64,000 nucleotides of DNA from Acidimicrobiales bacterium (GTDB lineage Bacteria > Actinomycetota > Acidimicrobiia > Acidimicrobiales > Palsa-688): NCBI GenBank assembly GCA_035533095.1, contig DATLUM010000071.1, positions 62,001 through 126,000 of the forward strand, in the 5' to 3' direction. Below the pieces are notes generated by a model. The model was given only the letters and a program-made list of their open reading frames with translations, was not told the origin of the DNA and made no database searches. Shown one piece after another: positions 12,581 through 23,401 of the stretch. The translations under genes were made by a program, and so were the position numbers. Within the stretch, counting starts at the first letter, position 1. Each line of letters begins with the position of its first letter.

Positions 12581-13069
12581 TCAGGACGGCGGCCGGGTGG
12601 TTATGAAGCGAACCGCGACGATCAGCAGCGCGACGAAGAAGCCCGCTCCCGACAGTGCTGCGAAGACGGGGCTCACGTGCGAGCTCTGCTGGGAGGTCGT
12701 GAACGGCACCGTCGAGGGGGTGACCGGGAGGTTCCCGCCGATCGAAGGCAACGTGGTCGCCGTGGTCGTCGGCGCTGCGATGGTCGTCTTGGGGGTGGTC
12801 CTGGCTGGGGTCTGCGTGACGACCGAGGGGGTGGTCGGTGGGGCCGTCTGTGGTGGAGCCGTCGTGGCCGGCGTAGTGGGCGGCGCTGTTGTGGTGGGCG
12901 GCGCCGTGGTGGTGGGCGGCGGGCACCCACCAACACAGAAGCTGGTGGTGGTCGTGTCGTTGGGTACGGCGCCGGCTCTGCTCCCCGGCCCGGCCAGCGC
13001 GAAGCCGAGCAACAGCACCGCCGCGCCGGCGAACAGGATCGTCAGTGCTGAGAGGGCCCGGCGCAGCAT
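12581..13069 (-). CDS. Secreted Pro/Thr-rich protein with C-terminal membrane anchor
   Basis: A 162-residue protein of unknown function. Residues 1-35 form a signal-peptide-like stretch (MLRRALSALTILFAGAAVLLL then GFALAGPGSRAGA). A SFCVGGCPPP segment gives two nearby cysteines. About 70 residues of Pro/Thr/Ala repeats (PTTTAPP units) follow, and the end is a hydrophobic segment GAGFFVALLIVAVRFI before a short basic tail. The layout suggests an exported, wall-spanning stalk anchored in the membrane. A TTG two codons upstream (13075) is an alternative start. It is the third gene of the operon with the pseudokinase and the LysM protein, 24 bp after the latter. Confidence 0.72.
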   Translation of the reverse strand: MLRRALSALTILFAGAAVLLLGFALAGPGSRAGAVPNDTTTTSFCVGGCPPPTTTAPPTTTAPPTTPATTAPPQTAPPTTPSVVTQTPARTTPKTTIAAPTTTATTLPSIGGNLPVTPSTVPFTTSQQSSHVSPVFAALSGAGFFVALLIVAVRFITTRPPS

Positions 13070-13093
13070 GGCCAACAGTGTTGCCGAACCGGA

Positions 13094-13888
13094 TCACTCA
13101 GGGATGGCAACCACCTCGCCGGCGAAGATCAGGTCCGGGTTCGCCGGATCCGCGAGGTTGGGTCTGTTCAACTCGATCACCCGAAGCCACAAGGCGGCCA
13201 CCGCGTGCTCGTCGGGTTCGTGGCCGAGCCGGGCCGCCAGGACCGACGCGGAGATCGACCAGAGGTCGTCACCGGGTCGGACGACCCACCGCGTGGGCAG
13301 GCCCGGAGCCGGCGTGGACGCCGAGGGTGGCGGAGGCGCGGTCAGGTCCGCCGCGGGCGGTGTTGCCGTGGGTGGCGCTGTTGTGGTGGGCGGCGCCGTT
13401 GCCGTGGGTGGTGCTGCTGTGGTGCGCGGCGCCGTTGTCGTGGGTGGTGCTGCAGCCTGAACCGGAACGAGCAGCGGCGGCCTCGGCGCGTGCCCGCCAG
13501 CCGGGTGCCCGCCAGTTGCCACCCCGCACCCCGCCGCCCCGGCCATGGCCGCCCCGATTACCGACACGCCGGCGACGTTCCTGACCAGCCGTCCCAGCCC
13601 CGGTAGCCGCAGCCGCACGAGCCACGCGACCCGCCCCGTGCATCGGGCCGCGCCCGCTGCGACGCAAAGCAACAGCCAGTAACCGCCCGCAAGCAAACCG
13701 GCGGCTCTCAGCAAGGACATCGCCGACAGCACCGGGTCGTGCACTGACCACCAATGCAGAAGATCGGAGGGATGGAGCAACGGAGGCCATCCCAGCGGCC
13801 CCTGGCCGGCGATTGCGAGCAGGGACGTAACAGCGGCTGCCCCTAGCCATTGCCGCAGCAAGGTTGAATCCTGGCCGCGGCCGATCAC
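13094..13888 (-). CDS. Membrane-anchored Pro/Thr-rich LysM protein
   Basis: A 264-residue protein. Three hydrophobic segments (about residues 14-28, 52-82 and 101-122) are followed by a Pro/Thr/Ala linker (about 135-195) and a C-terminal LysM-like domain starting RWVVRPGDDLWSISASVLA, with LWLRVIELNRPNLADP and ending AGEVVAIPE. LysM binds peptidoglycan, so the domain should sit in the cell wall. The GTG start at 13888 overlaps the stop of the upstream pseudokinase by 4 bp (GTGA). The longer open frame to 14068 lies inside that gene. Similar LysM membrane proteins occur beside actinobacterial Tad clusters; a role in wall passage of the pilus is inference. Confidence 0.78.
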   Translation of the reverse strand: MIGRGQDSTLLRQWLGAAAVTSLLAIAGQGPLGWPPLLHPSDLLHWWSVHDPVLSAMSLLRAAGLLAGGYWLLLCVAAGAARCTGRVAWLVRLRLPGLGRLVRNVAGVSVIGAAMAGAAGCGVATGGHPAGGHAPRPPLLVPVQAAAPPTTTAPRTTAAPPTATAPPTTTAPPTATPPAADLTAPPPPSASTPAPGLPTRWVVRPGDDLWSISASVLAARLGHEPDEHAVAALWLRVIELNRPNLADPANPDLIFAGEVVAIPE

Positions 13889-15003
13889 TTGCGCCTCGGG
13901 TCGATGAGAATCGGCGCGCGACCCGAGCGTTCGACTTCGATGCGATCGCATCCGGGCGTGCCTGCCCCCGGCGAAGGAGACACCTTCAGGGTCGAGGCCA
14001 GCGGGACTGTCGCCACAAGCCGCGCCACCACCTGCTGGTGGGATCCAGGCCAGGAGTCGAAGATCCATACGTTGTCCGATGCCTTGTCGAGAACGGCGGG
14101 AGTCGAGTCGCTACTGCAGTTCCAGCGACCCAGCACGGTCGCGCCGGCGACGCCCAAGATCCGGAAACGCCCCCCGATGATCCCCGCGGTAGCGGGCAGC
14201 GCACCACATCCATCGTCTTGGCGCGGGCAAGGTGCTGGCGTTGCACCACTGTCGCGGAACCGATTCCCGGCGACACCTCGATGAGCCCCGCCGGCCCCCG
14301 CCGATCCCACGGTCGCGTACAGAACGGCCGTTGCCACGACGGCAAGAACAGCGCCCCCGATCGCGGAGCGTTTCCGCCTTGCCGGATTGCCTCGAAGCTT
14401 CGAGACGGCGACTGGAAACCGGGTCGACGGCGCGGCCGCTCCGAGTATGCGCGCGAGCGAACGAGCATCCACGGCGTTGCCGCGCCAGCCAGTGCGGCGC
14501 CTGCCGCTTGCTGCTGCTCGAAGTGCGGCGGAGACTCTCGGTCCGGGTACGTCACGGCTGGCACCGATCAGCAGGTTGGCCAGCGCGGCCACATCAGCGC
14601 GCCTCGCGTTCGCGAAGTCGGAAGCACCAGACGCACGGCGCGCTGAACCGAATCCGCACAGGATCGGCCGGTCCCGTTCGTCGATCAGGACGTGATCGGG
14701 TTCGATGGCCCCATGGGTGATCCCGATGTCGTGCAGGTCGGCGACCGTCGTTGCCAGCGCAGCTCCGATCCACACCATGTCCGCGGGGTCGAGCGGTGAC
14801 CGCTCGCCGAGTGTCTTGCCGTCCACCTTCCGCAGTTCCAGAACCTCTGGCTCAGAGGCGCCCTCGGATCCCAGTATCTGCACGACACCTGGATGAGCCC
14901 CGGCCCTGAGGATCGCCGCCTCGGAGGCGAGCCGACTCCTTTCGGCCACGCTCGTGGCCTGCTTTCGGAGGATCCCACATATGCTCTCCTTGTCGACCAT
15001 CAT
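13885..15003 (-). CDS. Transmembrane pseudokinase with extracellular domain
   Basis: A 372-residue protein with a degenerate Ser/Thr kinase-like domain (about 1-195), a transmembrane helix (about 213-231) and a roughly 140-residue outer domain with several cysteines (PCPRQDDGCG, RWNCSS, PGCDRIEVE). Kinase residues are lost. The VAVK lysine position reads ICGILR, the catalytic HRD loop reads THGAIEPDHVLID (residues 96-108), and DFG reads CGFGSAR (116-122); there is no Gly-rich loop. The fold is still clear from SEAAIL (helix C) and VADLHDIGI. It probably binds a partner rather than phosphorylating. The start is ATGATG at 15003. It is first in an operon with the LysM and Pro/Thr-rich genes and divergent from the pilus operon. 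Confidence 0.8.
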   Translation of the reverse strand: MMVDKESICGILRKQATSVAERSRLASEAAILRAGAHPGVVQILGSEGASEPEVLELRKVDGKTLGERSPLDPADMVWIGAALATTVADLHDIGITHGAIEPDHVLIDERDRPILCGFGSARRASGASDFANARRADVAALANLLIGASRDVPGPRVSAALRAAASGRRRTGWRGNAVDARSLARILGAAAPSTRFPVAVSKLRGNPARRKRSAIGGAVLAVVATAVLYATVGSAGAGGAHRGVAGNRFRDSGATPAPCPRQDDGCGALPATAGIIGGRFRILGVAGATVLGRWNCSSDSTPAVLDKASDNVWIFDSWPGSHQQVVARLVATVPLASTLKVSPSPGAGTPGCDRIEVERSGRAPILIDPRRK

Positions 15004-15150: not shown

Positions 15151-16464
15151 GTGACGGTCCGTACGGCCACCGCGAACGGCTGGGCTTCACCGCTCAGAGA
15201 AGTGGAGCTCGCCGCCCAGGCACGCGCCAAATCGGAGTCCCTCGACATGGAATCCGAGGGCGCTATGGATCGCCTGCGCCAACTCTTGAACGAGGAAGTG
15301 GACGCGTGGCGTTCCGAGTACCGCAGAGGCAGGCGCCACGCCGACATCGCCGATCCGGCGCTCGCAGTGGAACGCGCGTTGAGGAACCTCGCCGGTTACG
15401 GGCCCCTCGAATCGCTCCTGGCGGACCCCGACGTGTGGGAGATCATGGTCAACGGACCGGCGTCCGTCTTCACCAAGAGGCATTCGGGAGCCGGCGGCTA
15501 TCACAGCGAGGTCTTCCACGACGACGAGCACGTCGTGCGGGTGCTGACCAAGATCCTCGACGACTCGAGCCGGTCGCACAGGAAGCTGGATCCGTCCGAA
15601 GGCCTGCAGGACGCGCAGCTGAGGAACGGTGCCCGGCTCCACATCGTCCACTCCGACGTCGGCCGGGACGGTCATCTGCTCGTGAACATCCGCAAGTTCT
15701 CAGGCGTGGTTCACAAGAACCTCCGCGAGTTGATCGAGCGCGGGATGCTCGACGTCGCGACCGCACGCTTCTTGCAGGCCTCCGTGCGCAGCAGGTTGTC
15801 GGTACTCATCGCCGGCGCTCCTGGCTCGGGCAAGACGACCCTCCTCTCTTGCCTCGCCTCCGAGCTCGACCCGGCGTTGCGGGTCGTGGTGGCCGAAGAG
15901 GTCTTCGAGACTGATATTCCGCTGCCGAACGTCGCCCACATGCAAACGCGCCCTGCGCGCGCCGATCGCGACGAGGTGGACCTGCGCCGGCTCGTCGCGG
16001 GATTCCTGCGGATGGCGCCAGACGTCGCGATAGTCGGCGAGGTGCGTGACAAGGAGGCTCTGCCGCTGCTGCTCACGCTTTCGTCTGGTGTCCAAGGGTT
16101 CACGACCATCCACTCGGCGTCGGCAAGGCAGGCGTTGTCGAGACTCCGTTTCATCTGCCAGCTCGCCGAGACCGGGTCCGAGCTGAGCGTGTCTGCGTTG
16201 TCCGCGCTGGTCAGCGAGGCGGTCGATCTCGTGGTCCACTGCTCGCGGCAGGGCCCCGAGATCCGGGTGACAGAGGTGCTCGCTGTCGAAGATCTGCAAG
16301 TTGCCTCGGGGACAGTGTCCTTCACCACTACCCCCGTGTTCACGCGCGCGAGGTTCGCCGACCCTCTCGCTTGGACTGGGAATCTCCCGGTGCGGGCGAG
16401 CCGCGCGCTGGAGTTGTGCGGCTACGACGTCCGGTCGCTGACCGCTGGGGATCTCGTCAGGTGA
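15151..16464 (+). CDS. cpaF: Tad/Flp pilus assembly ATPase (CpaF/TadA)
   Basis: A 437-residue secretion ATPase of the CpaF/VirB11-like family that powers Flp pilus assembly at the inner face of the membrane. Features: N-terminal helices; GYGPLESLLADPDVWEIMVNG, the usual entry to the N-domain; Walker A GAPGSGKTT (residues 222-230); and a Walker B/His region with DVAIVGEVRDKEALPLLLTL and GFTTIHSASA. The length is typical. The start is a GTG at 15151. Its stop overlaps the next start (GTGA), and the following two genes repeat this overlap, so the operon is tightly coupled. Confidence 0.94.
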   Translation: MTVRTATANGWASPLREVELAAQARAKSESLDMESEGAMDRLRQLLNEEVDAWRSEYRRGRRHADIADPALAVERALRNLAGYGPLESLLADPDVWEIMVNGPASVFTKRHSGAGGYHSEVFHDDEHVVRVLTKILDDSSRSHRKLDPSEGLQDAQLRNGARLHIVHSDVGRDGHLLVNIRKFSGVVHKNLRELIERGMLDVATARFLQASVRSRLSVLIAGAPGSGKTTLLSCLASELDPALRVVVAEEVFETDIPLPNVAHMQTRPARADRDEVDLRRLVAGFLRMAPDVAIVGEVRDKEALPLLLTLSSGVQGFTTIHSASARQALSRLRFICQLAETGSELSVSALSALVSEAVDLVVHCSRQGPEIRVTEVLAVEDLQVASGTVSFTTTPVFTRARFADPLAWTGNLPVRASRALELCGYDVRSLTAGDLVR

Positions 16465-17342
16465 CCAACACGACGTTGGCCGCCATCGCCGCCATCCTGA
16501 CGGTGTCGGGCGGCTACCTCATCTACAGCTCGGTCCGCTCACGGTCGGCAACCCCCCGGACGGCAGCGGCCATTTCGCTCGACGAGCGCTTCCGCTCGTG
16601 GGCTCGTGAAGCGGGCCTCGGAGCCGTCCGGCCGGCCGAATTTGCAGCTGCGGTGATCGTCGTCTTCGTCGCCGGTGGCCTGGCTGCGTACGCGTTGTTC
16701 GGCGGAGTACTCCCGGCGGTGGCTACAGGAGCGGCGTTGGCTACAAGCCCGCTGGCGACCTACAAGGCGCGCCGGCGTGCGCGCCTCGCTGAAGCAGCGG
16801 AGGCATGGCCGAGGATCCTCGAGGAGCTTCGCCTGCAGATCGGATCACTTGGTCGTTCGGTGCCGCAAGCACTCTTCGAGACAGGTCGCCGGGTCCCGGA
16901 GGAGTGGCGGCCGGCGTTCGGCGCGGCAGAGCGCGAATGGTTGTTGACGACGGACTTCCATCGCACGGCTTCGATTCTGAAGGAACGACTTGCCGATCCG
17001 ACGGCAGACGCGATTTGCGAAACGCTGCTCGTTGCCCATGAGTTTGGCGGGTCCGATGTCGACGCCCGCCTCGCGGACCTTATCGAAGACCGGGTTCTAG
17101 ATCTGCAGGGTCGAAAAGACGCCGTCAGTCGCCAAGCCGGTCTGCGTTTCGCTCGTCGCTTCGTGCTGATCGTGCCGGTGGGGATGGCCGCTGCAGGTAT
17201 GGCAATCGGTACCGGGCGCGCAGCGTACGGGACGCCGGGCGGTCAGGTGGCGATCGTGGTCGCAGTCGCCTCGGTGGCTCTGTGCTGGCTCTGGTCGTCG
17301 CGGTTGATGCGCATGCCCGCAGAGCCGAGGGTCTTCCGGTGA
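16461..17342 (+). CDS. tadB: Tad pilus assembly membrane protein TadB
   Basis: A 293-residue T2SSF-family inner-membrane platform protein. Transmembrane segments lie near the start (LAAIAAILTVSGGYLIYSSV), around residues 60-95 (AAVIVVFVAGGLAAYALFGG), and at the C-terminus (FVLIVPVGMAAAGMAIG and VAIVVAVASVALCWLW). The cytoplasmic helical domain contains WPRILEELRLQIGSLGRSVPQAL. TadB and TadC form the base on which the CpaF ATPase acts. The GTG start overlaps the cpaF stop by 4 bp; the same overlap links it to tadC. Confidence 0.9.
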   Translation: MTNTTLAAIAAILTVSGGYLIYSSVRSRSATPRTAAAISLDERFRSWAREAGLGAVRPAEFAAAVIVVFVAGGLAAYALFGGVLPAVATGAALATSPLATYKARRRARLAEAAEAWPRILEELRLQIGSLGRSVPQALFETGRRVPEEWRPAFGAAEREWLLTTDFHRTASILKERLADPTADAICETLLVAHEFGGSDVDARLADLIEDRVLDLQGRKDAVSRQAGLRFARRFVLIVPVGMAAAGMAIGTGRAAYGTPGGQVAIVVAVASVALCWLWSSRLMRMPAEPRVFR

Positions 17343-18244
17343 CGCGGCTACTGGCCGGAGCCGGGCTGCTCCTGTGGCTTGGGGCCACCCTGATCATCTC
17401 GTCACTGCCGCGATTCTCCCGGCCGGCTCTGGCGGAGCGGTTGCGGCCCTTCGCGCCCGGCGCCTCGGCGCCTCAGTCGGGTGGAGTTCTCTCGGTCGAG
17501 TCGTTCCGGGAGGTCCTGTCCCCGCTCGCGCACAGCCTGGGGGACCGTCTGGCCTCGTTGTTCGGGGTCGTCGAGCCACTCGAGGTCCGGTTGCGCCGGA
17601 TCCACTCGAGCGACGACGTGGCCGGGTTCCGCGTGAGGCAGATGACGATCGCAACAGTGATGCTCATATGCCCCGCGATGGCCGCCGCGCTCCTCCGCCC
17701 ACCACCGGTCGTATCCCTGCTGGGGGTCATAGGCGCGCCCCTGATGTCTTTCCTGGTCATAGAGCAGCGCCTCGCGCGTGCGTCCGAACGATGGCAGCGG
17801 ACCCTGGCAGCCGAGCTGCCCGTGGTCAGTGAGCAGCTTGCGATGCTGTTGAGCGCTGGTTACTCGCTGGGCACCGCGCTCTCACGGATCGCGAGAAACG
17901 GCGAAGGCTGCATGGCAGCGGACCTGAGGCTCGTGGTGAACCGGGTGCGCCAAGGACTCTCCGAAGCGCAGGCACTGCGGGAATGGGCGGAGGTGGCGCG
18001 TGTGGATTCGGTTCACCGCCTGGTGTCCGTGCTCGTCCTGAACACGGAGGCGGCCGACCTCGGTCGGTTGGTGTCCGCCGAGTCGAGAGCGGCGCGGCGC
18101 GACCTTCACCGCAAGGTGCTCGAGACCATCGAGAAGCGTGCGCAGCAGGTGTGGGTCCCGGTCACCGTAGCGACGCTGGTTCCGGGAGTGATCCTGCTCG
18201 CGGTGCCCTTCCTGGCGGCCTTGCGACTCTTCTCGAACGCGTAG
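17339..18244 (+). CDS. tadC: Tad pilus assembly membrane protein TadC
   Basis: A 301-residue T2SSF-domain protein, partner of TadB. It begins with a transmembrane helix (LLAGAGLLLWLGATLIISSL), has a second pair near residues 120-155, the conserved cytoplasmic ELPVVSEQLAMLLSAGYSLGTALSRI, a late VLNTEAADLGRLV segment, and a final membrane helix VPVTVATLVPGVILLAVPFL. The GTG start overlaps the tadB stop. The longer open frame beginning at 17282 lies inside tadB. Small exported proteins follow in the same direction. Confidence 0.9.
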   Translation: MTRLLAGAGLLLWLGATLIISSLPRFSRPALAERLRPFAPGASAPQSGGVLSVESFREVLSPLAHSLGDRLASLFGVVEPLEVRLRRIHSSDDVAGFRVRQMTIATVMLICPAMAAALLRPPPVVSLLGVIGAPLMSFLVIEQRLARASERWQRTLAAELPVVSEQLAMLLSAGYSLGTALSRIARNGEGCMAADLRLVVNRVRQGLSEAQALREWAEVARVDSVHRLVSVLVLNTEAADLGRLVSAESRAARRDLHRKVLETIEKRAQQVWVPVTVATLVPGVILLAVPFLAALRLFSNA

Positions 18245-18274
18245 AACCCAATGACACACGAGGAAGTGAATGCG

Positions 18275-18466
18275 ATGTCCTCAACCCGGCGATTGGCGAG
18301 ATTCAACGAAGCAGGTGAAGGTGTGATCTCCGCCGCGATAGCGGTGCTCATCATGGCGTTCATCGGCGTCGGCATGTGGATCGCCTTCAGCACGACGTTC
18401 CAGCACGCGGCCAAGCACGTCGACAACCAGGTCAACTGCATCGGTCAGACCAGCACCTCCTGCTGA
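18275..18466 (+). CDS. Small pilin-like membrane protein (candidate Flp pilin)
   Basis: A 63-residue protein: basic start MSSTRRLARFNEAGEG, one hydrophobic helix VISAAIAVLIMAFIGVGMWI, then a short polar end with two cysteines (NCIGQTSTSC). The Glu-Gly turn just before the helix is where a prepilin peptidase would be expected to cut Flp-type pilins, but the usual Glu-Tyr pair inside the helix is missing. The ATG at 18275 is chosen because AGGAAGTGA lies about 7 bp upstream; the in-frame ATG at 18251 would put this site inside the gene. Location straight after tadC supports a pilin role, but the family is not certain. Confidence 0.6.
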   Translation: MSSTRRLARFNEAGEGVISAAIAVLIMAFIGVGMWIAFSTTFQHAAKHVDNQVNCIGQTSTSC

Positions 18467-18488: not shown

Positions 18489-18875
18489 ATGCTCCTCAAG
18501 GGGAGAGGTTCGGCGGGCGTGGGTCTCATCGACACCACCGTCGGATTTCTCATCTTCTTGACGTTGCTCCTCTTCAGCGCGCAGCTGCTGGTGCGGCTGT
18601 ATGCCAGCTCGGCGCTGTCGTCTGCTGCGAGCCACGCCGCCGAGGAGGTCGCCTACGCCCCGGATCCGCCGGCCGAGGTCCCGATCGCTGAGTCGGACGC
18701 GCGACGTCGACTCGGGTCTTTCGGAGGTCCGAGGACCACTTTCGACTGGGGGCCGGTTGGTGGGGACATCGTGGTGCTGAAGGTCACGGGGCACACGCCG
18801 GCGCTGGTGCCATTCGACCGCGGGTGGACCACCATCACCAGGACTGTGACAGTGAGAGTCGAGCGGTTCAGGTGA
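18489..18875 (+). CDS. TadE-like pseudopilin
   Basis: A 128-residue protein with a short basic, glycine-rich start (MLLKGRGSAGVGLID), one hydrophobic helix TVGFLIFLTLLLFSAQLLVRLYA, and an extracellular beta-rich domain. This is the TadE-type minor pilin layout: a short leader ending in Gly, an acidic residue early in the helix, then a globular tail. Such proteins are processed by a prepilin peptidase and incorporated in, or prime, the pilus. No peptidase gene is seen here. It overlaps the following gene by 4 bp (GTGA). Confidence 0.7.
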   Translation: MLLKGRGSAGVGLIDTTVGFLIFLTLLLFSAQLLVRLYASSALSSAASHAAEEVAYAPDPPAEVPIAESDARRRLGSFGGPRTTFDWGPVGGDIVVLKVTGHTPALVPFDRGWTTITRTVTVRVERFR

Positions 18876-19330
18876 GAGCAGGCCGGGTGATACGGAAGGC
18901 TGACGAGGCCGGATTCGCCGGGGGCCTGGCCGGCCTGCTCTTCGGATTCCTCATCTTCGGGCTGGGGACTCTCCTCGTCGGATACGGCTGGGCGGTGGTG
19001 CAGACGAAGGCCGCCGTGGTCGACGCAGCTCGCCAGGCGGCGCGTAGCTACGTCGAGGCTCCAGACGCTCCCGATGCGTACGACTCGGCCCGTACGGCGG
19101 CCGACGCCTCGTTGAGCGCGAGGGGGCGGGATCCGGGACAAGCCTCGCTGCAGCTTTCCTCGGGGGCGTTCGGCCGGTGCGCGAGGATCACGGTCACCGT
19201 CGGCTACCCGGCGCCCGTCTTGGTCCTCCCCCTGTCGGGGCTGTTCGGAGGATCGACGGTGAAAGCGGAGCACTCGGAGCTGGTCGACCCGTACCGCTCC
19301 GGTCTGCCCGGGAGCGCCCAATGCGCCTGA
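18872..19330 (+). CDS. TadE-like membrane protein
   Basis: A 152-residue protein with a leader ending DEAGFAGGLAG, a long hydrophobic helix LLFGFLIFGLGTLLVGYGWAVV, then an exported domain containing AVVDAARQAARSYVEA, a pattern common to TadE-like proteins, and a short ARITVTVGYPAPV strand. The GTG start at 18872 overlaps the previous stop; GTG 18887 (VIRKADEAG) is possible. It ends 10 bp inside the next gene. Function as a minor pilin is inferred from fold layout and position. Confidence 0.7.
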   Translation: MRAGRVIRKADEAGFAGGLAGLLFGFLIFGLGTLLVGYGWAVVQTKAAVVDAARQAARSYVEAPDAPDAYDSARTAADASLSARGRDPGQASLQLSSGAFGRCARITVTVGYPAPVLVLPLSGLFGGSTVKAEHSELVDPYRSGLPGSAQCA

Positions 19331-19881: not shown

Positions 19882-20337
19882 CTACGCGGTCGTCCTCAAG
19901 CCGCCGGCGAGCTGGATGAGTGCATCCCCAGCGGCCGCGATCGCCGATCGCAGCCCGGTCAGTTGCACGTCGTATGAAGGGCTACCTGCGGCGGCAACCG
20001 TCGCCTCGCTGCTGGCGACGACCGAGCCGACGCGCGTGAGCGTGGCGTTCCAGCCGGGACGAAGAGCCTGCGCGGGCGGCGGGCCGAGCGACTTCGCAGA
20101 GGCGAGATCGGCCTGAAGCGCGGCTGCGTCGCGGGCCATCCGAGGCGCGGCGGGTGATCCAGGCGCGGCGTCGCTGCCCAGGGAGGTCAGGTCACCGACG
20201 AGGCGTGTCAGCGCTGGAAGGGCGTGTGAGCTCCATCGGAACTGCGCGTCGTCGTGATGGCGCGGCGCGGATGACCCGCCGGCGAGGAGCGCGACGGCGC
20301 CGAGTACCACCGCTGCGACGGCGAGCTCGACGGCCAC
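19882..20337 (-). CDS. Membrane-anchored protein of unknown function
   Basis: A 151-residue product from GTG 20337: a hydrophobic helix [20 protein letters not shown], then an Ala/Ser/Leu-rich helical domain probably outside the membrane (for example [19 protein letters not shown]). I do not recognise the family. The frame stays open to about 20595 with no ATG, GTG or TTG. The extension reads as a plausible Pro/Arg-rich cytoplasmic tail ([18 protein letters not shown]), so the true start may lie upstream at an unusual codon. It converges on the TadG-like gene with 3 bp between stops. Confidence 0.5.
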
Positions 20338-20636
20338 CGTGCGGATCCTTCGTCGAGTCAGTGGTGCTGCGCCAGGATGACCGACGACCGGTGGCGGCGG
20401 GGGAGGGGCGAAGAACCGGCGGCGCAGGGGGCGAACCCGAGACGGCTGCCGGTCCGCTTGACCGGGGTCGGGGCGCGGCGGGCGGCCCCACTCGCCGGTC
20501 GGGAGCGGCGTGCTCGGGGGCGCATGCCGGCCGGATTCCGGAACGTCGGCGTCGGGAACGGTCGCCAGGTGACCAAGGGTACGCGGGCCGCCTTCGTCTC
20601 ACGGCGATGATGCAGGGTCGGCAACAATGGCGCTCC

Positions 20637-21296
20637 ATGCGCCTCGTCGTCGCAACATGCTCGGTCGACTATGTCGGGCGCCTCTCCGCCCACCTTCCGG
20701 CCGCCCGCCGCCTCCTGATGGTCAAGGCCGACGGTTCGGTGTCGGTGCACTCCGACGGTGGTGCCTACAAGCCCCTCAACTGGATGGTGCCTCCCTGTCG
20801 GTTCACGGTCGAACCGGATCGGTGGGTGGTGACCAATGCAAAGGGCGAGACGTTGACCATCGACATCGAGGAGATCCACTCCGACGAGATGCACGAGCTG
20901 GGCGTCGACCCCGGTCTGGAAAAAGACGGCGTCGAAGCGCACCTCCAGGAGTTGCTGGCGGCCAACCCGGGGACGCTTGCAGGCGGTCTCGAGCTCATCC
21001 GGCGCGAATATCAAACCGACATCGGTCCGGTCGACCTGCTGTGCCGCGACAGCGCGGGGCGGATCGTCGCCGTCGAGATCAAGCGGCGAGGTGACATCGA
21101 CGGCGTCGAGCAACTGGCGCGTTACCTGGAGCGGCTGGACATGGACGGCAGGTTCCGGCCGGTGCGCGGGATCTTCGCGGCCCAGCAGATCAAGCCACAG
21201 GCGCGTGTCCTGGCCTCGGCGCGGGGGATCGAGTGTGTCGAGGTCGACTACGAGCAGTTGAGAGGCGAGGGCAACGGCCGCCTGACCTTGTTCTGA
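20637..21296 (+). CDS. nucS: Mismatch-specific endonuclease NucS (EndoMS)
   Basis: A 219-residue protein close in length to known NucS. It starts [21 protein letters not shown] and continues with [18 protein letters not shown] and YKPLNWM; the C-terminal nuclease domain has [20 protein letters not shown] followed by [20 protein letters not shown], giving the D...E-x-K catalytic motif. NucS replaces MutS/MutL mismatch repair in Actinobacteria and Archaea by cutting both strands at mismatches. The ATG at 20637 is the family start; the frame is open further upstream but without homology. It stands between the pilus operon and the reverse-strand cpaE gene, a position that looks incidental. Confidence 0.95.
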
Positions 21297-21303
21297 ATCT
21301 CAG

Positions 21304-22623
21304 TCATGCGTTGCCGGTTTCGAACTCCGACGCCTCGGGCCAGTGCCCGAGAGACCCCGGCGCGATGCGAGCCGGGACGGGCTCCGCAGGCGCCGTGTCG
21401 GCTAGCCGTTCGCAAAGTGCCGACACGGCGCGATGGAGTGGGTCGACCAGAGCCGATGGCATCGCCGTGCTGTCACGCAGGCACTCTTCGAGCTTGCGCT
21501 CGGGCAGTGGCATTAGGTTCGCGAGTGACAAGTTCTCTGCCGTGCTCCCGACATCGGTCAGCGACGCGAAGGCACGCGACATCTCGGCCCTGGCCCGCGG
21601 GCTTCTCGGAGCCCGGTTGATCACGGGCAGTATCCGCTCCGTCCGCACGCCGGCAGCGATGAGACTTCTCGCCAGGCGCGCGAGCGAATGCACGCCCTTC
21701 ATCCCCGGGGCCCCTACCGCGACTACCACCGTGCTGTGCAGCGCGGCGGACCTGGCCAGGTGGTTTCTCTCCTCGACGTCGGCGGAACCTCCTTCGGTCT
21801 CTCCCTCGAAGTCGCCCTCGACGTCGCAAACGACCGCCTGAAACGACCTTCGCAATCCCCGGATTGCCGCGTCCACCGCGCGCGGGCGCAGCGCGGACCA
21901 TGCTTCGGGGCGCCGCAGTCCGAGCAGCAGCTGGTACCCGCGCCGTGGGACCTCGAAGGTCATCCCTCTCACCTCCGAGGGCTCGATCTCGCTGAGGCGG
22001 CAGGCCTCCACCAGTTCCTGGATGCCGGGGCCCAGGTCGGTCGCGTTGTGGAGCATCGCCTGGTCGGCGTGCCGGGCCAGGTCCGCCAGCAGGACCCGTC
22101 TCGCGTTTCTCGCATCGGAAGCCATGCCCTGAGCCAGCGCCATGGCGGCGGTGGATGCCCCCGTGCCTCCGGGACCGCAGACCGTCACCATCTCCGCCAA
22201 CCACAGCGGGGAGGGGGCGTCCGTCAACGCCGGCGGCAACCGGTCGCCGGCGCCGACCGCCCGGCAGTGCGCAGCCAGCGTGTCGAGCAGCTGGTCGCGG
22301 TCGAAGTCCGCGGGAAGCTCCGCTGCGGCTCCGAGGTCCGCCGCCGAAGGGCCTCCGCGCCTGGTGTCGCGGACGACGATGACCGGTGTCCCGGCCGCGC
22401 CGGCGGCGTGCACGAGGTCACGGTCGAGCGACGGGAGCGTGGCATCCACCACCAGGGCGGAATGAAGCCTGCCCGAGCCAAGCCGGGCGCGGACTTCCTC
22501 CGCCGAGACGCACTTGACGAACTCCGCTGCCAGAGCCGCCGAGTTGGACCATTGCGATACGGCGTCGAACCACTGCGAGCGCACCGGCGCCAGGCCGAGC
22601 ACCACGTAGCGGTCGCTGCTCAC
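21304..22623 (-). CDS. TadZ/CpaE-like atypical MinD-family ATPase
   Basis: A 439-residue protein. The N-terminal half is receiver-like without clear phosphorylation residues (VVDATLPSLDRDLVHAAGAA). The second half is a ParA/MinD-type domain starting MVTVCGPGGTGASTAAMALA: the P-loop lacks the usual lysine of GKT/S. VLLADLARHADQAMLHN and FQAVVCDVEGDFEGE follow as the A'/B regions. TadZ proteins localise Tad pili to the pole and often have degenerate P-loops. The GTG start at 22623 follows the CpaB-like stop by 7 bp on the same strand; the open frame beyond overlaps that gene. It probably works with the forward pilus operon. Confidence 0.82.
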   Translation of the reverse strand: MSSDRYVVLGLAPVRSQWFDAVSQWSNSAALAAEFVKCVSAEEVRARLGSGRLHSALVVDATLPSLDRDLVHAAGAAGTPVIVVRDTRRGGPSAADLGAAAELPADFDRDQLLDTLAAHCRAVGAGDRLPPALTDAPSPLWLAEMVTVCGPGGTGASTAAMALAQGMASDARNARRVLLADLARHADQAMLHNATDLGPGIQELVEACRLSEIEPSEVRGMTFEVPRRGYQLLLGLRRPEAWSALRPRAVDAAIRGLRRSFQAVVCDVEGDFEGETEGGSADVEERNHLARSAALHSTVVVAVGAPGMKGVHSLARLARSLIAAGVRTERILPVINRAPRSPRARAEMSRAFASLTDVGSTAENLSLANLMPLPERKLEECLRDSTAMPSALVDPLHRAVSALCERLADTAPAEPVPARIAPGSLGHWPEASEFETGNA

Positions 22624-22630
22624 GGGCCGG

Positions 22631-23401
22631 TCACTGACCGGTGCCGCCCGAGCCGGCGCTGCCCGAGCTGGCACTGCCCGAACCGGGGCCGACGCCGTCC
22701 GTTGGTGACGCCGCCACGATCGTCAACGCCCCCGCGTGCGCGGCGGCCACGACCGACTCCACCTCGTCGAGAGAACTGACTCCGAGCGTGACCGTCGCCG
22801 AGGCAGGGCCGGAGAGCGGGTTGGAGCCCGGCTTGGACAGAGCGAGCAGGATGGCGCCGCGCAGCACCAGGGTCACCGCGGTGGACGAATCCGAGCCGGT
22901 CGTCTGGAGCACGTCGACGGGCTCACCGGCGTAGAGCCCCGTCAGCGTCGCCGGGTCGGCGGCCACGGTGACGGGTCTGAGGGCGGGGGCCTGGCCCGCC
23001 GGGACGAGCATGGACGCCTGCAGCAGCTCGCCCCGGACAACCGGCACGGCCAGGGTGCGTCCGCTCAGCGATGCGGCGGATCCGTACATCTCGGCGCTCG
23101 CCGCCCGGGGTACCCGGACGACGACCGTCGTGAGGTCGCCCGGCTCGACCAGCGCGCCCGCCTGCAGGGAGTGGACCGCGACCACGAACCTGCCGGTGTC
23201 GCCCTGGTTGGTGCCTGTCAGGGCGGCGGCCGCAACGGCCACCGCTGCCGCGGCCACCAGCAGGCCTCCTACCACGGCTCGCCCGGTGGGCAGCGCCCGC
23301 CGCCTTCCCGCCAGCCGGCGACCGCCCTGAACGGACATTTCGGTCTCGGAGACGCCGTTGCGAGCGTGCTGCGCCCTCCCCGGCGCTTCCCCCAGCCTCA
23401 C
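22631..23401 (-). CDS. CpaB/RcpC-like SAF-domain pilus protein
   Basis: A 256-residue protein with one membrane helix (AVVGGLLVAAAAVAVAAAAL) and an extracytoplasmic SAF domain: FVVAVHSLQAGALVEPGDLT, then GRTLAVPVVRGELLQASML and LYAGEPVDVL. This is the CpaB/RcpC layout. In Tad systems CpaB sits outside the membrane, and SAF domains may bind the wall or pilus. The tail is Gly/Ser-rich. The GTG at 23401 is used; ATG 23338 is an alternative that keeps the helix. It is the first gene of a two-gene unit with the CpaE-like ATPase. Confidence 0.82.
   Translation of the reverse strand: MRLGEAPGRAQHARNGVSETEMSVQGGRRLAGRRRALPTGRAVVGGLLVAAAAVAVAAAALTGTNQGDTGRFVVAVHSLQAGALVEPGDLTTVVVRVPRAASAEMYGSAASLSGRTLAVPVVRGELLQASMLVPAGQAPALRPVTVAADPATLTGLYAGEPVDVLQTTGSDSSTAVTLVLRGAILLALSKPGSNPLSGPASATVTLGVSSLDEVESVVAAAHAGALTIVAASPTDGVGPGSGSASSGSAGSGGTGQ

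Follow-up and report, generated by a model that had tools for sequence, protein, structure and literature searches.

A membrane pseudokinase and an overlapping LysM gene as candidate accessory parts of the Tad pilus machine in Acidimicrobiales

The transmembrane pseudokinase EssB/YukC is an interaction hub of T7SSb (PMC9600267, PMC12599244). A further pseudokinase fold is found in TraF, a protein of the monoderm T4SS encoded by plasmid pIP501, which co-elutes most of the T4SS proteins (PMC13037476). We describe a locus of an Acidimicrobiales bacterium in which the genes for a predicted membrane pseudokinase and a LysM protein lie beside the genes of a Tad pilus. We discuss the sequence and fold of the encoded proteins, their distribution relative to Tad genes, the probable origin of the pseudokinase, and the roles that these proteins may play.

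Single-membrane bacteria have no secretin, and to our knowledge it is not known by what means their Tad pili pass through the thick wall and take hold in it. The pseudokinase–LysM pair provides named candidates for an inner-membrane hub and a wall anchor. If these roles are true, the Tad machine would join those of EssB and TraF as the third case of a pseudokinase serving as a machine part.

The window, by which we mean the whole stretch of DNA analysed, comprises 64,000 nt from an Acidimicrobiales bacterium (Palsa-688; assembly GCA_035533095.1, contig DATLUM010000071.1, positions 62,001-126,000 of the forward strand). Its relevant features, in window coordinates, are the following.

13885-15003, minus strand: predicted transmembrane pseudokinase gene, 372 aa, with a cytoplasmic kinase-like domain, one TM helix and an extracytoplasmic domain (from the ORF, the model and orthologues)
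14416-15003, minus strand: kinase-like domain, residues 1-196; HRD changed to HGA, catalytic Asn to His and DFG to GFG; Lys and alpha-C Glu kept; without a Gly loop
14308-14364, minus strand: predicted TM helix of the pseudokinase, residues 214-232 (helix 218-231 in the model, with low pLDDT there)
13888-14241, minus strand: extracytoplasmic FG-GAP/VCBS-like domain of the pseudokinase
13094-13888, minus strand: LysM gene, 264 aa, GTG start; membrane protein with a Pro/Thr/Ala linker and a C-terminal LysM
12581-13069, minus strand: Pro/Thr-rich protein gene, 162 aa from ATG; N-terminal hydrophobic segment and C-terminal TM helix
15151-16464, plus strand: CpaF/TadA-type ATPase, divergent from the pseudokinase gene (T2SSE 105.6 bits)
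16371-17342, plus strand: TadB-like membrane protein
17282-18244, plus strand: TadC (T2SSF 41 bits, above cut-off)
18251-18466, plus strand: short pilin-like (Flp-like) protein, without a Pfam match
18489-18875, plus strand: TadE-like minor pilin (weak Pfam match)
18824-19330, plus strand: second TadE-like protein
21304-22674, minus strand: TadZ-like ATPase
22631-23401, minus strand: CpaB (SAF domain 25.2 bits)

As an earlier note on this DNA had described, three genes point away from the pilus genes: they are three minus-strand ORFs, and the CpaF run proceeds in the opposite direction from 15151. The spacing given there is likewise seen in the sequence, where GTGA is common to the pseudokinase stop and the LysM start, and a gap of 24 bases separates the LysM gene from the Pro/Thr-rich gene. 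CpaB and TadZ (21304-23401, minus strand) lie outside the plus-strand Tad run, and the window's genome contains one prepilin peptidase match above cut-off. Promoter and terminator scans returned nothing beyond chance. The Tad region also holds a 151-residue ORF without a Pfam match (19882-20337, minus strand) and, read by eye, a NucS/EndoMS-like mismatch endonuclease (20622-21296, plus strand) in the interval that separates TadZ from the plus-strand Tad genes.

The product of 13885-15003 is predicted to be a membrane pseudokinase with a PknB-like fold and a truncated N-lobe. The Pfam Pkinase profile matches residues 12-129 at 24.9 bits, below its curated cut-off of 31.7. When a profile built from 22 orthologues was run against the PDB, it recovered Ser/Thr kinases with a best E of 4.5e-14. 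An AlphaFold2 model built on 15 sequences reaches block-mean pLDDT values mostly of 86-96 over residues 11-170. The best structural match of its kinase part is the PknB catalytic domain (Z 19.2, rmsd 3.1, 183 residues aligned), and the Gly loop is absent because the domain begins at PknB residue 22. Failure of this part to fold as a kinase, which the earlier note had named as an outcome that would speak against it, was not seen in the model.

The letters at the catalytic sites of the window protein are LRK / HGAIEPDH / GFG, such that the HRD Asp, the Asn, and the DFG Asp expected of a PknB-type Ser/Thr kinase are missing. The first reading of HRD as HGA and DFG as GFG was correct; its extension, that all catalytic motifs are lost, is slightly too strong, since the beta-3 (VAIK) Lys and the alpha-C Glu are retained. 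Each of these two residues is kept in 31/37 family members, and the window protein has both. Across the same 37 members, HRD is mostly HGA or HGR and its Asp is gone in most; His replaces the catalytic-loop Asn in 36; and at the position of the DFG Asp, all 37 have Gly, Ser, or Asn. Some exceptions in the family carry mixed catalytic residues. His104 and Cys116 are conserved near the former active site. With the beta-3 Lys and alpha-C Glu in place, nucleotide binding may still be possible.

The extracytoplasmic domain is more degenerate in the window copy, where the DxDGDG/DxDxDG-type loops of its relatives are degraded and Pfam gives no match over the ectodomain. The orthologue L073 exceeds the Pfam cut-offs, with 31.4 bits for FG-GAP (cut-off 22.1) and 28.5 bits for FG-GAP_3. 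In the family alignment, Cys296, Trp318, and Cys352 are invariant. A model of the ectodomain alone contains seven beta-strands and no helix. Foldseek found nothing significant with this model (E > 0.2), and most of the proteins listed by VIA-align were beta-propellers, at Z 8-9, which is close to what the tool gives as background. With moderate confidence, we take the ectodomain to be one or two blades of a propeller-type fold.

The second gene encodes a protein with membrane-like segments at 59-80 and 105-123, both in its first half. Its Pfam LysM score is 15.1 bits against a cut-off of 20.9; we assign the domain because the orthologue L042 passes the same cut-off at 26.1 bits and because the family alignment agrees. 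In loci chosen from search hits, and hence in a sample that is not an unbiased survey, the 4-base NTGA overlap of the pseudokinase and LysM genes is kept in 39/46 pairs. Such an overlap, kept so widely, suggests that the pseudokinase and the LysM protein are made in step with each other.

The third gene encodes a protein with hydrophobic helices at 8-26 and 135-153. The C-terminal helix sits within the motif TPSTVPF..T..QS.HV.P.FA.LS..GF..ALLI...RF..TRP, which is conserved in six same-family relatives. Because this TM helix is conserved, the protein is probably membrane-anchored, and the suggestion that the Pro/Thr stalk is secreted has to be given up. A sortase substrate was considered and set aside, as no LPXTG lies directly before the C-terminal helix. 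Among the relatives searched, the protein was found only within the window's own genome family. Weaker motif matches occur directly after the pseudokinase at three loci (L061, L067, and L070), at which no LysM gene was detected. Locus L088, of Acidiferrimicrobium sp. IK, combines the motif with pseudokinase, LysM, and Tad genes. We propose that the Pro/Thr gene is a family-level addition to the pseudokinase–LysM module.

Pseudokinase orthologues with 23-41% identity adjoin Tad genes throughout Acidimicrobiales. Co-occurrence beside Tad genes, the comparison suggested at the outset, was examined in a sample of 248 genomes of the order; 121 genomes matched the ectodomain profile and 121 the TadZ profile, and five weak matches to the latter were then removed. 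Both were present in 99 genomes, the ectodomain only in 22, and neither in 110; in the remaining 17, TadZ was present and the ectodomain was not detected. This association has an odds ratio of 29 and a Fisher p of 4e-29, with genomes treated as independent and phylogeny ignored. Where both lie on one contig, they are within 20 kb of each other in 51/54 genomes. For LysM and TadZ, both were present in 94 genomes, LysM only in 13, TadZ only in 22, and neither in 119, with LysM positions picked by hand from the search output and most very long frames left out.

Gene order adds to this picture. In the sample of loci drawn from search hits, the pseudokinase gene is collinear downstream of TadE in 24 loci, whereas 8 loci, one of them that of the window, have it diverging from CpaF. 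The window's divergent order is therefore the minority form; more commonly, the pseudokinase gene belongs to the 3' end of the Tad cluster. At three collinear loci (L041, L057, and L071), an ORF of ~145 residues occupies the roughly 500-base gap between TadE2 and the pseudokinase.

The LysM gene adjoins the pseudokinase and Tad together in 33 genomes. In genomes where these two separate, which often means different contigs of a draft assembly, it adjoins Tad alone in 16 genomes and the pseudokinase alone in 37. LysM genes also adjoin divergent second Tad clusters, suggesting that LysM is a recurrent Tad partner in Acidimicrobiales. Divergent second clusters were noted at L179, L181, L186, L187, and L188; at L186-L188, CpaB or TadE has a clear LysM gene as its neighbor.

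The link to pili had been drawn from position, and it now gains further support from the neighborhood, the co-occurrence, the 24 collinear loci, and the LysM overlap. Part of this linkage could reflect hitchhiking or positional inertia, because the neighborhood is itself conserved: in many genomes, with or without Tad, the genes are bordered by hrcA-dnaJ and often by hemW and phoH.

About 20/121 genomes have the pseudokinase but lack this Tad type, and the LysM gene is mostly not beside it there. Standard Tad fragments occur in four such carriers, as CpaF of 60-70% identity in G122, G158, and G239 and as TadE beside the gene in G088. Divergent Tad clusters, made up of TadC, TadE, or CpaB pieces around other CpaF genes, were present in 7/7 examined genomes (G154, G126, G231, G262, G160, G132, and G087), of which G160, G132, and G087 have a clear LysM gene alongside. 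Homologues scattered in Tad-free genomes, an outcome that the earlier note had held to be damaging, were not seen: none of the examined carriers is shown to be Tad-free. Such second clusters may be common, and their presence is no proof of dependence on Tad.

In a quick tree with several long end branches, 65 locus pseudokinases fall into one clade (SH-aLRT 99), and the clade is kept after removal of the columns from the catalytic loop to DFG. Outside this clade fall the kinases that keep their catalytic residues, some of which have Tad and LysM genes as neighbors. Searched against other families of the phylum, the ectodomain profile found kinase-TM-ectodomain proteins adjoining TadZ/CpaB at L156-L160, with LysM as well in 4/5. 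L158 and L159 retain all key residues, and the Pkinase scores of L159 and L157 are 121 and 93 bits, well above the cut-off. L157-L160 share the same ectodomain, have intact or part-intact active sites, and stand beside CpaB/TadZ and LysM. Within Acidimicrobiales, proteins of kinase-TM-ectodomain form with intact catalytic Asp, Asn, and DFG Asp occur at L116, L122, L123, and L126, where no Tad gene was detected in the stretches read; to judge by their residues, they are possible active paralogues.

Read economically, these sequences suggest a single loss of the catalytic residues in a receptor kinase linked to Tad. The change from an active-site-intact kinase to a pseudokinase would thereby be traceable across living relatives. 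A broader account, which we hold tentatively and at somewhat short of an even chance, is that a catalytically competent PknB-like kinase with an FG-GAP-like ectodomain, situated beside Tad and LysM genes as its counterparts in other families of the phylum still are, lost its catalytic residues in a single event at the root of the Acidimicrobiales clade and turned into a structural component of the machine. The Tad pilus would then be the third monoderm export machine to have independently recruited a membrane pseudokinase hub.

The analysis itself shows the gene structure, the fold, the absence of three catalytic residues (the catalytic Asp, the Asn, and the DFG Asp), the conservation, the synteny, the overlap, and the single clade. 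On function, we lean slightly towards the reading that the first two genes form an accessory module of the Acidimicrobiales Tad pilus machine, composed of a non-catalytic membrane hub and a co-translated LysM wall anchor, with the third gene supplying a tether or spacer. Bacteria of the monoderm type have no secretin. The cytoplasmic kinase-like domain would dock to machine components near the CpaF/TadB/TadC base; the single TM helix would cross the membrane; and the beta-propeller-like ectodomain would contact wall-side partners. The co-translated LysM protein would grip peptidoglycan and in this manner fix the Tad machine in the wall, with the Pro/Thr protein as a possible tether or spacer. 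Complex formation and a scaffold role of the pseudokinase are proposed by analogy with the EssB/YukC hub and TraF, and wall anchoring by the LysM protein may reasonably be inferred. The gating of pilus passage that the earlier note offered as an alternative finds no support in these results.

The nucleotide binding that the retained Lys and alpha-C Glu may allow counts against a pure scaffold, because a scaffold would not need it, and since these residues are kept, a role in sensing or as a nucleotide switch is the main rival. The protein would then be a general envelope-sensing receptor, whose ectodomain senses the state of the wall or surface and whose cytoplasmic part switches a partner allosterically, perhaps with a nucleotide bound; Tad would be one client among several, or a mere neighbor at a stable dnaJ-hemW-phoH locus. 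Such a receptor fits the retention of the beta-3 Lys and the alpha-C Glu, each in 31/37 members, the genomes that keep the gene at the locus without this Tad type, and the relatives away from Tad that preserve their catalytic residues and the ectodomain. It fits poorly with an overlap-coupled LysM gene (39/46) that tracks Tad strongly, with the 24 loci collinear with Tad genes, and with the divergent Tad clusters in 7/7 examined genomes that lack this Tad type; we consider it unlikely, if still a serious contender. Position alone could also be made to carry the linkage, with a membrane protein unrelated to the pilus held in place by a conserved chromosomal block, as the flanking hrcA-dnaJ and frequent hemW and phoH would allow. 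Co-occurrence of the pseudokinase with TadZ and linkage of LysM to separate Tad clusters speak against this account, which we find very improbable; so do the Tad-LysM-kinase neighborhoods in other families of the phylum, where the stretches read gave no sign of the block.

The retained Lys and Glu would suit, too, an enzyme with an atypical reaction, for instance AMPylation or glutamylation in the manner of SelO or SidJ, in place of a dead kinase. SelO likewise has HG where HRD is expected (Table 1, PMC12599244), and the conserved His104 and Cys116 lie by the former active site. Yet hardly any member has kept the metal-binding Asn or the DFG Asp, whereas SelO keeps DYG/DFG, and the Gly loop is absent, which leaves this explanation with a slim chance of being right. 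The accessory module with a non-catalytic hub remains the reading that we prefer.

Several described proteins resemble parts of this locus. EssB/YukC, from Bacillota, likewise has a pseudokinase domain in the cytoplasm whose motifs and Gly loop are degraded, a single TM helix, and an extracytoplasmic domain, and it is part of an envelope-spanning machine of monoderms (PMC9600267, PMC3694306, PMC12599244). The C-terminal segment of EssB is helical (PMC3694306), in contrast to the beta-propeller-like ectodomain predicted here, and its catalytic-site letters are LDMR/Ytfvlapd/TRG against LRK/HGAIEPDH/GFG. EssB belongs to the T7SSb locus with EssC and WXG100 partners. The neighbors read here are housekeeping and Tad genes, and no gene among those annotated was recognized as a T7SS gene. 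TraF is likewise a membrane pseudokinase fold and co-purifies with most machine components (PMC13037476), but it belongs to another machine and another phylum and has a predominantly helical C-terminal domain. EssB, MviN, and TraF were absent among the structural and profile matches listed, and EssB also among the best PDB matches, which does not exclude them.

TscD of T7SSc and TshM of T7SSh are membrane kinase-like parts of secretion loci, and T7SSh adjoins Tad genes (PMC11217815). TscD differs in keeping its active site. TshM was set aside as a counterpart, having no ectodomain (PMC11217815). PknB-type receptor kinases share the kinase-TM-ectodomain topology and give the best structural match of the kinase part; they carry PASTA repeats where the window protein has an FG-GAP-like ectodomain, and the catalytic residues are lost here.

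Actinobacterial pseudokinases offer a further comparison. The MviN pseudokinase (ActPs3) is tied to the cell wall, but it is contained within a large membrane protein needed for peptidoglycan synthesis, and its motifs, VALT/Lsidhpsr/Y-- (PMC12599244), are not matched by those of the window protein. ActPs2 has the beta-3 Lys changed to Arg, HRN, and an activation-loop extension of ~250 residues; here, the Lys is kept, the motif is HGA, and the whole domain spans ~196 residues. In ActPs1, all three catalytic residues are substituted and many members have a C-terminal PQQ domain; the window protein keeps the beta-3 Lys, and Pfam found no PQQ domain in it. The Tad/Flp loci of Micrococcus luteus share the CpaF-TadB-TadC-Flp-TadE core, and the words kinase and peptidoglycan are not in the text of the paper that describes them (PMC4322843).

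Searches of the open-licence literature on pseudokinases and Tad pili, on Tad together with LysM or peptidoglycan in Actinobacteria, and on Tad pili of Acidimicrobi- taxa returned no paper that could be recognized by title and abstract as a description of this system. Within that literature, the earlier statement that no system of this shape had been described holds for the Tad pilus; it needs amending for other monoderm machines, in which EssB/YukC and TraF are pseudokinase hubs. The parts of the locus are of known kinds; the pseudokinase–LysM–Tad combination and the pseudokinase family appear to be new. By analogy, the best reading is that the pseudokinase would work like EssB/YukC or TraF while being a member of neither.
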